From: an uncultured Spirochaetaceae bacterium
GTDB lineage: Bacteria > Spirochaetota > Spirochaetia > Sphaerochaetales > Sphaerochaetaceae
Assembly (NCBI GenBank): GCA_944392705.1
Contig: CALXXO010000006.1
Location: 1-38,373, forward strand
Length of the DNA stretch: 38,373 nt
Reading direction: 5' to 3'
Of the stretch, positions 27,231-32,933 are shown in pieces. How positions within the stretch are numbered: position 1 is the stretch's first letter; every line of letters starts with the position of its first letter. The notes under the pieces were generated by a model. That model was not told the origin of the DNA. It was given only the letters and a program-made list of their open reading frames with translations, and did no database searches. A program made the position numbers and the translations under genes.

Positions 27231-28976
27231 TCAGTCCTTGTAGAGCGGTGAAGCCTGATACTCCGTATGGAGCAGATGGTGAGCTTTTTCCGAAAGAGGA
27301 GCTCCGAGATAATCCGCATAGAGCTTCTGAATCGATGGGTTCTGATGAGAACATCTCTTAACGGACTTCTCATCATCCTCATAAAGACCTTCGATTCTTT
27401 CTGCTCTAACATCATCATCCGTACCATATGGCTGGCCACCACCAGCTATACAGCCACCCCTACAAGCCATGATCTCAACGAAGTCGACATCAGATGGACG
27501 TCCGGCTTTCTTATCCTCGCGGATTTTGTCGAGAAGCGGCTTTGCATTGGCCATTCCATGGACAACAGCGACGCGGACAGTCTTTCCATCAACATCAATC
27601 TCTCCGCGCTTGATATCATCAAGGCCACGGACAAGCTTAATCTCCGGATCTTCCAGGTCCTTGCCGGTAAGTCCATAATATGCTGTCCTGATAGCAGCTT
27701 CCATAACACCGCCAGTTGCGCCGAAGATAGTACCAGCTCCGCTGTATTCAGCAATCGGGCTATCGGCTTCGCTATCTGGAAGATTCTTGAAATCAAGGCC
27801 GCGCGATGCGATAAGGCGGGCAAGCTCCCTTGTGGTCAGCACAAGATCAACATCCCATTCCCCGCTCGATGCAGCATGGTCTCCATCCCTTCTTATCTCA
27901 ACTTTCTTTGCTGTACATGGCATTATTGCGACAGAGTAGACATTCTTCTTGTCGATTCCGACTTTCTCCGCCCAGTATGTCTTCGTGATAGCACCCTGCA
28001 TCATCATAGGGCTCTTTGCAGATGAGAGGTTCTCAAAAAGATCCGGATAATACTCCTCAACATAACCAATCCAGCCAGGGCAGCAGGATGTGAGCTGTGG
28101 CATGACACCACCATTCTTGATTCTATCAAGAAGCTCGTAACCCTCTTCCATGATTGTAAGGTCGGCACCGAAGTTAGTGTCGAATACATAGTTTATGCCA
28201 AGGCGTCTGAGTGCTGTATAGAGCTTCTTTGTCGTCACCTCGCCAGGCTTGAGACCGAATTCCTCACCGATTGCAACACGTACAGATGGTGCAATCTGGA
28301 CAGCTACGACCTTATCTGGATCCGCGATAGCGCGCATCAGGTCATTTGTCTGATCCTGCTCATAGATAGCACCTACCGGACAATGCGTGATGCACTGGCC
28401 GCACTTGATACAAGGGCTGTCATTCAGAGGAAGCTTTGCAGCAGGACTCATCGTTGTATGATCGCCACGCCCGATGAACTCGAGAGCATATACACCCTGC
28501 ATTTCCTGACAGACCTGGATACAGCGGCCACACTTGATACACTTCTCAGGATCCAGCACCACAGCGCCTGTAGACCTATCCTTCTTATCCTCAGCAAGCC
28601 TGATCTCAAAAGGCTGCTCCCTCACGCCATATTCAATTGCAAGCTTCTGGAGCTCACACTTGTTATTCCTCGTGCAGAGAAGACAGGAAGATGGATGTGT
28701 GGACATTGTCAGCTCAAGAATAGTGCGCCTGACTTCATAAAGATCCTGGTCATGTGTGATGATCTTCATTCCCTCAGCAGCTGGTGTAGAGCAAGCACGT
28801 ATTATCTTCGCAGATCCCTCCTGCTTGCAGACACAAAGCCCGCAGGAACCGAACGGCTTAAGATCCGGATGATAACACAACGTCGGGATTCTGATTCCCG
28901 CTTTCCTGGCAGCATCAAGGACGGTTGCCCCCTCAGCCACCTCAACTTCGATTCCCTGTACAGTAAGATGAATCAT
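27231..28976 (-). CDS. hydA: NADH-linked [FeFe] hydrogenase catalytic subunit
   Basis: HydA is the catalytic subunit of a trimeric, probably electron-bifurcating hydrogenase that uses NADH and ferredoxin. In 581 residues the cluster sites appear in order: [2Fe-2S] Cys34, Cys45, Cys48, Cys62; the His-Cys3 site His94, Cys98, Cys101, Cys107; two [4Fe-4S] ferredoxin motifs (146-156 and 189-199); then H-cluster motifs TSCCPGW (Cys299), MPCTAKK (Cys354) and MACRGGC (Cys505, Cys509), and the small-subunit-like tail. GGAGG lies six bases before the ATG. No maturase genes (hydE, hydF, hydG) are in the window. It is the last gene of the operon. Confidence 0.96.
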   Translation of the reverse strand: MIHLTVQGIEVEVAEGATVLDAARKAGIRIPTLCYHPDLKPFGSCGLCVCKQEGSAKIIRACSTPAAEGMKIITHDQDLYEVRRTILELTMSTHPSSCLLCTRNNKCELQKLAIEYGVREQPFEIRLAEDKKDRSTGAVVLDPEKCIKCGRCIQVCQEMQGVYALEFIGRGDHTTMSPAAKLPLNDSPCIKCGQCITHCPVGAIYEQDQTNDLMRAIADPDKVVAVQIAPSVRVAIGEEFGLKPGEVTTKKLYTALRRLGINYVFDTNFGADLTIMEEGYELLDRIKNGGVMPQLTSCCPGWIGYVEEYYPDLFENLSSAKSPMMMQGAITKTYWAEKVGIDKKNVYSVAIMPCTAKKVEIRRDGDHAASSGEWDVDLVLTTRELARLIASRGLDFKNLPDSEADSPIAEYSGAGTIFGATGGVMEAAIRTAYYGLTGKDLEDPEIKLVRGLDDIKRGEIDVDGKTVRVAVVHGMANAKPLLDKIREDKKAGRPSDVDFVEIMACRGGCIAGGGQPYGTDDDVRAERIEGLYEDDEKSVKRCSHQNPSIQKLYADYLGAPLSEKAHHLLHTEYQASPLYKD

Positions 28977-28988
28977 CGCTAACCTCCA

Positions 28989-30776
28989 TTAATGAATCTC
29001 GATGGCCGAGAACTTGCAGGTATCCTTACAGACACCGCACTTGATACATACATTTCCGTTGATCTTATGAGGTTTCTTGACCTCACCGGAAATAGCACCG
29101 ACAGGACACTTCCTGGAGCAGGCTGTACAGCCGATACACTTGGAAGGATTGATCTCATAGCTTATGAGCTTCTTACACTTTCCAGATGGACACTTCTTGT
29201 CGACAATATGTGCCTTATACTCCTCAGGGAAGTAGTGAAGCGTCGAGAGAACCGGGTTAGGCGCAGTCTGTCCAAGAGCGCAAAGCGAACCGATTTTCAT
29301 AGCATGGGCAATCTGCTCTATCTGCTTGATATCATTCTCCTCACCTTTACCCTGTGTGATTTTCTCCAGGATATTGTAAAGGCTCTTTCCACCAATGCGG
29401 CATGGAGCACACTTGCCACATGATTCATCTACGGTAAAGTTGAGATAGAACTTGGCAACATCTACGATACAATCGTCCTCGTCCATGACAATCATTCCAC
29501 CGGAACCCATCATCGAACCGATTCTCTGAAGTCCGCCGAAATCGATAGGAGTATCGAGATTCTCCTCGGTTATGACACCACCGGAAGGGCCACCTGTCTG
29601 GACAGCCTTGAATTTCTTACCGTGTGCGATTCCGCCACCGATATCATAGACAATCTCGCGGAGGGTTGTTCCCATAGGAACCTCAACAAGACCGGAATTG
29701 CAGATCTTTCCTGTAAGAGCGAAGACCTTTGTTCCATGGCTGTCTGGAGTACCGATTGAAGCGAACCACTCGCCACCATTATTGATGATCTGTGCGACAT
29801 TAGCCCATGTCTCAACATTGTTGATGACGGTAGGCTTGCCCCAGAGACCTTTGGATGCCGGGAATGGCGGTCTCGGCTTTGGCATACCTCTATGGCCTTC
29901 TATGGACTGAAGAAGCGCAGTCTCCTCACCGCAGACAAATGCACCAGCACCGAGCCTTATCTCGATATCGTAATCGAAGCCGGAACCGAGAATATCCTTT
30001 CCGAGAAGTCCATACTCCCTGGCCTGCTTCATAGCCACCTCGAGACGATGGATTGCGAGAGGATACTCCGCGCGGATGTAGATGAAGCCCTGATGAGCAC
30101 CGACTGTATGACCGCAGATAGTCATAGCTTCGAGAACAGAATGGGGATCGCCCTCGAGCGTGGAACGGTCCATGTACGCACCTGGGTCGCCCTCATCGGC
30201 GTTACATACAACATATTTGACAGGATTGTTCTCCTGCTTCGTGAAGTTCCACTTCATCCATGTCGGGAATCCTGCACCACCGCGACCACGGAGACCAGCT
30301 GTCTTGAGCTCGTTGATTACATCATCCGGAGTCATATCGAAAAGGACTTTCTCAAGCGCCTTATAACCACCGGCAGCAATGTACTCATCGATATTCTCAG
30401 GATCGATTGAGCCACAGTTGCGGAGGACGATTCTCATCTGCTTCTGATAGAACTGAATGTCCTCAACTTCCTCATACGCCTTATGAGGAGCCTTGTTGTA
30501 CAGAAGCCTTGTCACTTCGCGTCCTTTTATGACGTGCTCTGCGATAAGCTCCTTTGCATCCTCCGGCTTGACCTGGACATAGAAAGAATCCTCAGGAAGG
30601 ATTTTTACAATCGGGCCCTGCTCACAGAAACCGAAACAGCCTGTCTTGATGACCTGTACCTGGTCAGCAACACCCTGAGCTACAGCTTCATCGATGAGAG
30701 CATGATAAATCTGATCGGAGCGCGATGACTCGCAGCCAGTACCTCCGCAGACTAGAATATAGTTCTTGAAACCCAT
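28989..30776 (-). CDS. hydB: Hydrogenase NuoF-like subunit (NADH/FMN)
   Basis: HydB carries FMN and the NADH site and passes electrons among the hydrogenase clusters. The 595 residues contain an N-terminal thioredoxin-like [2Fe-2S] domain (Cys10, Cys15, then TGCFGFC), the NuoF core with glycine-rich RGRGGAGFPTWMKW and GAGAFVCGEETAL, a [4Fe-4S] site in SCGKCAPCRIGG, and a C-terminal two-cluster ferredoxin (CIGCTACSRKCP and CIKCGVCKDTC). The start is the ATG at 30776, with AAGGAG seven bases upstream, one base after the preceding stop. Confidence 0.95.
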   Translation of the reverse strand: MGFKNYILVCGGTGCESSRSDQIYHALIDEAVAQGVADQVQVIKTGCFGFCEQGPIVKILPEDSFYVQVKPEDAKELIAEHVIKGREVTRLLYNKAPHKAYEEVEDIQFYQKQMRIVLRNCGSIDPENIDEYIAAGGYKALEKVLFDMTPDDVINELKTAGLRGRGGAGFPTWMKWNFTKQENNPVKYVVCNADEGDPGAYMDRSTLEGDPHSVLEAMTICGHTVGAHQGFIYIRAEYPLAIHRLEVAMKQAREYGLLGKDILGSGFDYDIEIRLGAGAFVCGEETALLQSIEGHRGMPKPRPPFPASKGLWGKPTVINNVETWANVAQIINNGGEWFASIGTPDSHGTKVFALTGKICNSGLVEVPMGTTLREIVYDIGGGIAHGKKFKAVQTGGPSGGVITEENLDTPIDFGGLQRIGSMMGSGGMIVMDEDDCIVDVAKFYLNFTVDESCGKCAPCRIGGKSLYNILEKITQGKGEENDIKQIEQIAHAMKIGSLCALGQTAPNPVLSTLHYFPEEYKAHIVDKKCPSGKCKKLISYEINPSKCIGCTACSRKCPVGAISGEVKKPHKINGNVCIKCGVCKDTCKFSAIEIH

Positions 30777-30777
30777 A

Positions 30778-31158
30778 TCACTGCTCCTTCTCAACAAGCT
30801 CGATCCTCAGGTCCTCGAGGATTTTGCCATTCTTCAGATGCTCCTCGACGATACGATGTGCCGCATCCTTGTCTACCGAGCCATATGCTACAAGACCGGT
30901 TTTAGGCATATAGACCTCAACTACCGGTTCCGGATTAGGAGCTGCGCTCCCCGTCTGTGTGATGATTACATTATCGAGCCCAAGCTTCTCCACATCATCT
31001 GCGATGGTATTTAGCGTGAGCTTGGCACCGGCATCTATTCCCGAAGTGCCCATTGCGACAACTACATGGACAGTGCGGCCATGAATATCGCGTTTTTTCA
31101 GATTCTTCTCCTCGCGTTCACGGATACTGCGAAGATCGGAAAGCGAAAGCTTAGCCAT
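30778..31158 (-). CDS. Cysteine-less thioredoxin-like [2Fe-2S] ferredoxin homologue
   Basis: This 126-residue protein has the shape of the small [2Fe-2S] ferredoxin-domain proteins encoded between the ATPase-like gene and hydB in clostridial hydrogenase operons. The framing motifs remain (VVVAMGTSGIDAGA at 32-45, IITQTGSAAP at 65-74, EPVVEVY at 77-83), but there is no cysteine in the whole protein: the positions expected to be Cys are Ser39 and Ser71, and the last is lost in a shortened loop. It cannot hold the usual cluster. The start is ATG 31158 behind AAAGGAG; it overlaps the ATPase gene by eight bases. Confidence 0.82.
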   Translation of the reverse strand: MAKLSLSDLRSIREREEKNLKKRDIHGRTVHVVVAMGTSGIDAGAKLTLNTIADDVEKLGLDNVIITQTGSAAPNPEPVVEVYMPKTGLVAYGSVDKDAAHRIVEEHLKNGKILEDLRIELVEKEQ

Positions 31159-31642
31159 AAATCTCTCCTTTCTCAAGGTCGGATAGAAGTTCTCTAAACC
31201 TTTTTATGCACCCGGCCCTGTCAGGGACTGCGTCCCTCTCTTCAAGAAGCTTCCGGGAAACAGAGATGTCCCGGCCATCCTTCTTTATTGTAATCGTTAT
31301 GCTTTCTTCTCTGCAGAAAACAGGCAGCAAGGCTTCGTAAAGGTCATCGAAGCTGCCATCATCAGAAGCAGAGAATTCAAGCACCGTTCCTGCCCATCCT
31401 CGTGTTAAGCGGCATCTGCCTTCGCTTCTCTCTTTTATGATATGAAGACCACGGCCACGCCCTTCGCCCTTGGTAGTGCTTCCATCCTCAAACGGATCAG
31501 ACAACAGGTTGTATTCCCCATCATCCTCGACCCGGACACCAATCTTTCCGCTCCCTATCTCAACCAGTGCATTTATATGCCTGGCACCTGCTTCAATGCT
31601 GTTCTCTACAGATTCAAGCAGAAGAGCGGCGGTGTCATGCAT
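31151..31642 (-). CDS. HATPase-domain protein of the hydrogenase operon
   Basis: This 163-residue protein is a free-standing GHKL/histidine-kinase-type ATPase domain without a dimerisation histidine or sensor region. The N box is ESVENSIEAGA (Asn14), a D-box-like EDDGEYN lies at 39-45, and the G box is TTKGEGRGRGLHIIKE at 56-71. A C-terminal part (about 110-163) has no assigned role. The family is known beside hydC in clostridial-type hydrogenase operons, where its function is not established. It begins with ATG sharing one base with the hydC stop (TGATG). Confidence 0.8.
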   Translation of the reverse strand: MHDTAALLLESVENSIEAGARHINALVEIGSGKIGVRVEDDGEYNLLSDPFEDGSTTKGEGRGRGLHIIKERSEGRCRLTRGWAGTVLEFSASDDGSFDDLYEALLPVFCREESITITIKKDGRDISVSRKLLEERDAVPDRAGCIKRFRELLSDLEKGEIYG

Positions 31643-32106
31643 CAGACGAACTTATCCAGGATTCCGGATATCTGATTCTTCGAAACCTTTCCGAATACCT
31701 CTCCGGATATCGTCATAACTGGAGCCAGTCCGCAGCATCCAACGCATCTGACGGCTTCAAGTGAGAACTTCCCATCCTCTGTAAGTCCTCCAACTTCAAG
31801 TCCGATTTCCTTTCCAAGTTCCTCGACAATCATATCGCCACCCTTAAGATAGCAGGCGGTACCGAGACATACCTGGATGTTGTATCTGCCAGGTTTATTC
31901 AGCTTGAAGAAATGATAGAAAGTAAGAACTCCCCATATTGTCGCAAGCGGAACACCAGTCTCAATGGAAACGCCTTCTGCAGCTTCCCTGGAGACATAGC
32001 CGAATTCCTCCTGGACTCTATGAAGGATCATGATGAGATTACCCGGCTTATCCTTCCACTCGGAAATGTAAGCGTTAAGCTCATCAGAGAATATGCTCTG
32101 AGCCAT
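31642..32106 (-). CDS. hydC: Hydrogenase NuoE-like [2Fe-2S] subunit
   Basis: HydC is the small NuoE-type electron carrier of the hydrogenase complex. The 154 residues hold the four cluster ligands Cys80 and Cys85 (CLGTAC) and Cys121 and Cys125 (CVGCC), after the helical N-terminal domain with FGYVSREA and IWGVLTFYHFF. It is the first gene of the operon, and the ATG follows AGGAGGAG. A promoter (TTGCAA-18-TAGAAT) lies 27-56 bases upstream, in the region shared with rex. Confidence 0.95.
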   Translation of the reverse strand: MAQSIFSDELNAYISEWKDKPGNLIMILHRVQEEFGYVSREAAEGVSIETGVPLATIWGVLTFYHFFKLNKPGRYNIQVCLGTACYLKGGDMIVEELGKEIGLEVGGLTEDGKFSLEAVRCVGCCGLAPVMTISGEVFGKVSKNQISGILDKFV

Positions 32107-32273: not shown

Positions 32274-32933
32274 ATGAACAGTGATATGCTTATCCGCATT
32301 ACCCGCTATTACAGGGCTCTTAATCGTCTGAGAGCCATTGGTTTAGAGAAAGTCTTCGCACACAACCTTGCAGATGCAGCAGGAGTTTCCGCGGCAGTCG
32401 TCAGAAAAGACTTCTCAATCCTGGAGATCCATGGCCAGAAAAGAGGGGGCTATGAAATAACGGATCTCATTGAGAGAATCTCTAAAATACTCGGGAAAGG
32501 GGATCCTCAGAATGTCATTGTCGTAGGCTGCGGAAGAATCGGAAAGGCGCTGATGCACTATTCAGGATTCGAGCCGGATGGAATAAGGATTGTCGCAGGG
32601 TTCGATTCCGACCCCATCGTCTACTCCGATGTTTCCCACCCCGTTCCGGTGTATCCTATGTCCAGGCTAGATGAGATGGTGGAAGCGCTGGATGTAAAAG
32701 TCGCAATCATCACAGTTCCGGAATCAGCGGCAGCAGATACAGCGGAAAAGCTCATGGAAGCGGGAGTGAAAGGCATACTCAACTTCTCTCCTATCACACT
32801 AAAGCCCCATCCGGTAGCGGCGGGAGATACACCTGCAGTGATTCACAACATAAACATAGCACTGGAGCTAGAACAGATCTTCTACCAGTTGCAATTCCCG
32901 GATGGAAAATCATCCAAGAGAACGGATCCATGA
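32274..32933 (+). CDS. rex: Redox-sensing transcriptional repressor Rex
   Basis: Rex binds DNA when NADH is low and releases it as NADH rises, so fermentation and hydrogenase genes are turned on under reducing conditions. The 219 residues have an N-terminal winged helix (to about 70, with SAAVVRKDFSILEI in the recognition region and KRGGYEI in the wing) and a Rossmann domain starting with VVGCGRIGKA at 84-92. The C-terminal swapped helix (INIALELEQIFYQL) is intact. TGGAG precedes the ATG by eight bases. It diverges from the hydrogenase operon, a likely target, and its end overlaps the convergent ogg gene by 24 bases. Confidence 0.94.
   Translation: MNSDMLIRITRYYRALNRLRAIGLEKVFAHNLADAAGVSAAVVRKDFSILEIHGQKRGGYEITDLIERISKILGKGDPQNVIVVGCGRIGKALMHYSGFEPDGIRIVAGFDSDPIVYSDVSHPVPVYPMSRLDEMVEALDVKVAIITVPESAAADTAEKLMEAGVKGILNFSPITLKPHPVAAGDTPAVIHNINIALELEQIFYQLQFPDGKSSKRTDP

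Follow-up and report, generated by a model that had tools for sequence, protein, structure and literature searches.

The small fourth subunit of a hydrogenase operon in an uncultured Spirochaetaceae bacterium contains no cysteine, and the safe reading of the sequence comparisons is that the three-Cys motif found in most of its homologues has been lost at least three independent times, provided that the genes of the operon share one history. The gene, hydD, lies at 30778..31158 on the minus strand of the window (the whole stretch of DNA analysed, 38,373 nucleotides of contig CALXXO010000006.1). In our best reading, HydD has an accessory or structural function, any cluster that it carries in other lineages is outside the bifurcation pathway, and only the fold and a docking surface are left of it in this bacterium. 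We assign this reading a probability of about 0.6.

The hydrogenase operon

The minus strand of the window encodes, in this order, hydC, a GHKL ATPase, hydD, hydB and hydA. The hydC gene (31642..32106, minus strand) encodes a NuoE-like [2Fe-2S] subunit in which every ligand Cys is present. The GHKL (HATPase_c) protein encoded upstream of hydD (31151..31642, minus strand) matched PF02518 with 28.1 bits (cut-off 26.4). The NuoF-like HydB (28989..30776, minus strand) consists of a four-Cys N-terminal thioredoxin-like domain, an FMN domain and a C-terminal ferredoxin domain. HydA (27231..28976, minus strand) scored 787 bits against NF040763, the family of NADH-dependent [FeFe] hydrogenases of group A6 (cut-off 765), and its H-cluster motifs are intact (TSCCPGW, MPCTAKKVE and EIMACRGGCIAGGGQP). 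With HydA over the curated cut-off, Fe-S domains at both ends of HydB, and HydC, the set shows the features of group A6. By sequence, the operon is of the NADH-dependent HydABCD-type [FeFe] hydrogenase and is predicted from its family to be electron-bifurcating.

The hydD gene starts with an ATG at 31158 and encodes 126 amino acids. An AGGAG precedes this ATG, the start overlaps the stop of the ATPase gene by 8 nt, and the hydB ATG lies one base past the hydD stop and has its own GGAG. The ribosome-binding site, the tight overlaps and the retained operon place named in the original prediction were thus all found. Translation of the minus-strand ORF agreed with the predicted complete absence of Cys, with 0 Cys among the 126 residues. 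In the homologue alignment, Ser39 and Ser71 occupy two of the three motif columns and the third is a one-residue gap between residues 74 and 75, which is the arrangement that had been proposed.

A gene for the redox-sensing repressor Rex (32274-32933, plus strand; 201 bits in NCBIfam, cut-off 138) is located divergently upstream of the hydrogenase operon. No clear match to the Rex operator consensus was detected between rex and the operon, and the only match in the window, a weak one at another place, was within chance expectation. HydG, HydF and HydE over cut-off were all missing in eight genomes, seven of them from the window genus and 94-96% complete and one (G057) 100% complete. In these genomes the entire hydC-D-B-A operon is present and the H-cluster motifs of HydA are intact, and the maturase genes are clustered in their sister genomes. 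Their maturases may be encoded on contigs that were not binned; otherwise the hydrogenase is matured by another route or stays immature. The genome from which the window comes (75% complete) likewise had no HydG match.

Family and fold of HydD

The window gene is HydD as assigned by position, between the GHKL ATPase gene and hydB in a hydC-ATPase-hydD-hydB-hydA operon. Its sequence is homologous to the operon-linked thioredoxin-like ferredoxin family, and its relatives form a continuous family at the same operon position with about 35 to 90% identity. The majority form of the motif in our sample, GTC...TGCxxxC, is absent from the window protein (S/S/gap). We did not treat this motif as defining HydD, because a quarter of the operon-linked homologues lack it. 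Among curated models, the window protein had no match over the cut-off to PF01257, the Pfam family of thioredoxin-like ferredoxins, and reached 22.7 bits against NF041612 of NCBIfam (cut-off 150).

A sequence search of the PDB found no HydD structure, and a HydD alignment profile matched HydB N-terminal domains and the Aquifex ferredoxin (E 1e-20 to 1e-10). The AlphaFold2 model of the window protein, built with 36 sequences (pLDDT 84), matched thioredoxin-like [2Fe-2S] ferredoxins over residues 27-126 with Z of 13-15, so that the ferredoxin fold, proposed earlier from the letters alone, is retained in the predicted structure. The fold is shared with the Aquifex ferredoxin (1f37), Azotobacter FeSI (5abr) and the N-terminal domain of HydB, NfnB and StnB. 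In contrast to these ferredoxins, which carry the Cys that ligate the cluster, the window protein has no Cys, and it has an additional N-terminal helix in the model (residues 6-23). Even the Cys-bearing HydD proteins have only three Cys, compared with four in classical thioredoxin-like ferredoxins.

Distribution of the cysteine motif

HydD homologues were collected from the window genus and its class, across the phylum Spirochaetota (393 genomes), and also from named genome contigs and two plasmid records; the matches listed in the genome-contig scan came mostly from spirochaetes and Kiritimatiellota/Lentisphaerota. Among 214 distinct homologues, 160 have all three motif Cys (hereafter CCC), 54 have none, and not one has one or two. 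The Cys-bearing proteins include HydD of Breznakiella homolactica (L082). This all-or-none pattern is what a joint role of the three Cys in binding a single cofactor would produce. The sequences without the motif, about 25% of those sampled, fall into three types. Type I has GTSG and TG[SG]xGLD, with Ser39 and an Asp in the third column invariant, and type II has GTSG and TGEKGxSS. Type III is that of the window genus, in which the third column is deleted and position 39 is Ser, Ala or Gln and position 71 Ser, Ala, Val or Leu.

Every HydD copy found in the window genus is of type III, and the motif was absent in 36 of the 36 distinct homologues scored, a few of which have a Cys elsewhere, outside the motif. 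Therefore, the absence of Cys from the window protein is not due to chance or to a sequencing error. A sister genus in the same family (g29) keeps all three Cys (GTCG and QAGCQGxC). Cys loss thus does mark a clade, as the original prediction suggested might be seen, but it is not unique to the window protein, as the two further types show. In the phylum set of a Pontiellaceae genome, the small HydD homologues that were fetched are Cys-bearing, with the second and third motif Cys read in all and the first unreadable by pattern in four. One genome (G377) encodes a type II operon (L228) together with an operon with a Cys-bearing HydD (L190).

Throughout these types the core subunits keep their ligands. 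The four N-terminal Cys of HydB are retained in all HydD types, except for one CCC locus with CCAC and one gapped type III row, and the ligand Cys of HydC are likewise retained.

Number of independent losses

The HydB tree, which is independent of the HydD data, requires six changes of the Cys label. In AU tests on a 45-row HydB set, clades joining types I and III (p = 3.9e-5), types II and III (p = 9.9e-6), types I and II (p = 5.1e-5) or all types (p = 1.5e-33) were rejected, whereas a single clade was not rejected for type I (p = 0.083) or type III (p = 0.39). Our estimate of at least three losses follows from the rejection of every pairing of Cys-less types on the HydB tree (AU p <= 5.1e-5). 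The tree of HydD itself has three label changes with the motif columns and five without them; in the latter case, with 122 columns only, one Cys-less clade was not rejected (p = 0.088). A single origin of all Cys-less forms is therefore rejected on the HydB data, and the HydD tree alone is not decisive. If hydD alone moved between lineages, which the HydD data by themselves allow (p = 0.088), fewer losses would be needed.

Selection and evolutionary rate

Within the window genus, dN/dS was about 0.14 for hydD, about 0.035 for hydB and hydC and about 0.34 for the ATPase gene, values that are rough because dS is near 1. The hydD gene is under purifying selection and is not decayed, as had been proposed. 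With the motif absent throughout the genus, an artefact, a sequencing error or a decayed gene is rejected as the explanation. Conservation across all types extends to at least eleven positions of HydD, the N-terminal helix included; those common to Cys-bearing and Cys-less proteins include L9, R13, R23, M36, G37, T38, G40, G44, E77, P78 and Y92.

HydD nevertheless evolves faster in the window genus than elsewhere. Its distance relative to that of HydB was 7.1 in type III, compared with 2.3 in CCC lineages, 2.5 in type I and 1.8 in type II. The corresponding ratio for the ATPase was 15.8 in type III, 3.9 in CCC lineages and 22.9 in the sister genus (five pairs only). Measured against HydB, HydD and the ATPase of the window genus thus change three to four times as fast as their counterparts in Cys-bearing lineages. 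The ratio for HydC was about 2 in CCC lineages and types I and III (2.1 in the window genus and 2.0 in CCC lineages).

Erosion of the neighbouring ATPase

The ATPase of the window keeps its N box and G2 box, but the G1 box DxGxG is degenerate (DDGEY). The lid is shortened by about seven residues (the G1-G2 distance falls from 29 to 22 residues), and the sister genus has the same G1-box loss and short lid. The G1 box is lost in 28 of the 31 type III loci scored and in three of four in the sister genus, and it is intact in all 104 CCC loci scored elsewhere, where about 32 further loci were unscorable and 23 more had no detected ATPase. Because the G1 box is already lost in the sister genus, which keeps its Cys, erosion of the ATPase probably came first and the loss of the HydD Cys second. 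Cys loss does not require this erosion, since types I and II retain the G1 box (six of six and three of three scored loci), and strict coupling of the two events is rejected.

The original prediction also proposed a role of HydD with its ATPase neighbour. Joint erosion and acceleration in the window's family speak for it indirectly, whereas the intact ATPases of types I and II speak against it; nucleotide binding by HydD itself found no support. In one member of the genus, the HATPase and HydD are read in a single 301-aa frame (L021, 970-1875). We did not count this fusion as evidence of contact: the junction is preceded by an A6 run, HydD still has an AGGAG and an ATG of its own, and the fused frame is possibly an indel artefact.

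Proposed role of HydD

The three-Cys site that HydD carries in most lineages is a probable binding site for an Fe-S cluster, as suggested by the all-or-none pattern and the fold for a motif of three Cys, not four. This cluster would lie off the path between H2, FMN and NADH/ferredoxin, because the core clusters are invariant and HydABC without HydD exists, as the enzyme of T. maritima and as a set of genes in the window's own family (L262). The core reaction can probably proceed without this cluster, given its repeated complete loss from enzymes whose core stayed intact. The site would have been lost as a unit in the window genus and in at least two other lineages, with the fold, the N-terminal helix, the operon place and the conserved surface retained after the loss. 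Cys-less HydD would then most likely act only through protein contacts, in assembly, stability or docking on HydB, HydC or HydA, and perhaps also on the GHKL protein.

HydD and the GHKL protein may instead form a regulatory or maturation module, with redox sensing by HydD and nucleotide-dependent output by the ATPase, that has eroded here into a vestige or passive scaffold. The acceleration of both proteins but not of HydC, and the loss of the G1 box in the window genus and its sister genus, are consistent with such a module. The ATPase of A. woodii, HydE, is outside the enzyme and was linked with assembly or signalling as a possibility (PMC3315566), and HydD and HisK are absent from the NiFe holoenzyme of A. 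mobile (PMC8880783, PMC9304861). However, HydD was reported within purified [FeFe] enzymes (PMC4694547), and the Cys losses of types I and II occurred beside intact G1 boxes. We regard this alternative as unlikely.

Somewhat more doubtful is a variant in which the HydD cluster has a sensory or gating function, is coupled to the ATPase and stands outside catalysis. The control module would then have been disarmed in two steps, with the G1 box and lid lost in an ancestor shared with the sister genus and the HydD cluster afterwards. If true, these lineages would be a natural knock-out series showing a bifurcating hydrogenase running without its regulator.

Partial loss of function could also account for the faster evolution of HydD in the window genus (7.1 against 2.3), and the HydD-less HydC-HydB-HydA set in the same family would suit a non-functional remnant heading for loss. 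We doubt this just as much, since the ORF persists at the same operon place in the operon-bearing members of the genus with dN/dS of about 0.14. In four members of the genus (L260, L261, L264 and L265), the window-type operon is missing and there is another HydC-HydB-HydA-like set, whose HydB is 54-55% identical. The genomes without HydD have only this other HydB, so no case of HydD loss from a window-type operon was observed.

Single Cys-to-Ser changes can leave a cluster in place. That HydD of the window type still has a cluster or other metal, ligated by Ser, Asp or other non-Cys residues, is nevertheless highly improbable: the fold matches that rank best include the Cys55Ser and Cys59Ser variants of the Aquifex ferredoxin (1m2b, 1m2d), and Ser39 and the third-column Asp are invariant in type I, but in the window genus the positions vary freely or are deleted, and all three Cys were lost together.

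Comparison with known systems

In tetrameric bifurcating hydrogenases, the function of the fourth subunit, which we take to be accessory or structural, is unsettled in the literature, where it is an Fe-S protein in some papers and cofactor-free in others. A cofactor-free HydD is already a known idea: no apparent cofactor site was described for HydD of A. woodii (PMC3315566), and HndB of S. fructosivorans is probably without a redox centre (PMC10084766). Against this view, HydD is regarded as an Fe-S protein in PMC6085437 and PMC6163223. Repeated concerted loss of the Cys was not found in the papers open to search, with subscription papers mostly outside it. Such loss, with the clusters of HydB and HydC kept, could reconcile both descriptions.

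HydD is not part of every related enzyme. The T. maritima enzyme consists of HydABC only (PMC6288185), and no HydD was found in the NiFe-HydABCSL enzyme purified from A. mobile (PMC8880783), so that HydD may serve in maturation or regulation and not be a subunit.

Acetobacterium woodii HydABCD and Solidesulfovibrio fructosivorans Hnd have the same kind of operon and small fourth subunit as the window. The A. woodii order C, ATPase, D, B, A was deduced from locus numbers (PMC3315566), and HydD of A. woodii and HndB are likened to the window protein by published description. The operon of Caldanaerobacter subterraneus subsp. tengcongensis (hydC-tte0891-hydD-hydB-hydA) has the same order as in the window, and its HydD purifies together with the other subunits as a stable complex of four (PMC4694547). 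That HydD is predicted to carry one Fe-S cluster, whereas the window HydD cannot do so through Cys. The repeated loss of the site allows Cys-bearing and Cys-less HydD to be compared directly in otherwise similar enzymes, and it predicts a HydD cluster away from the bifurcation path.
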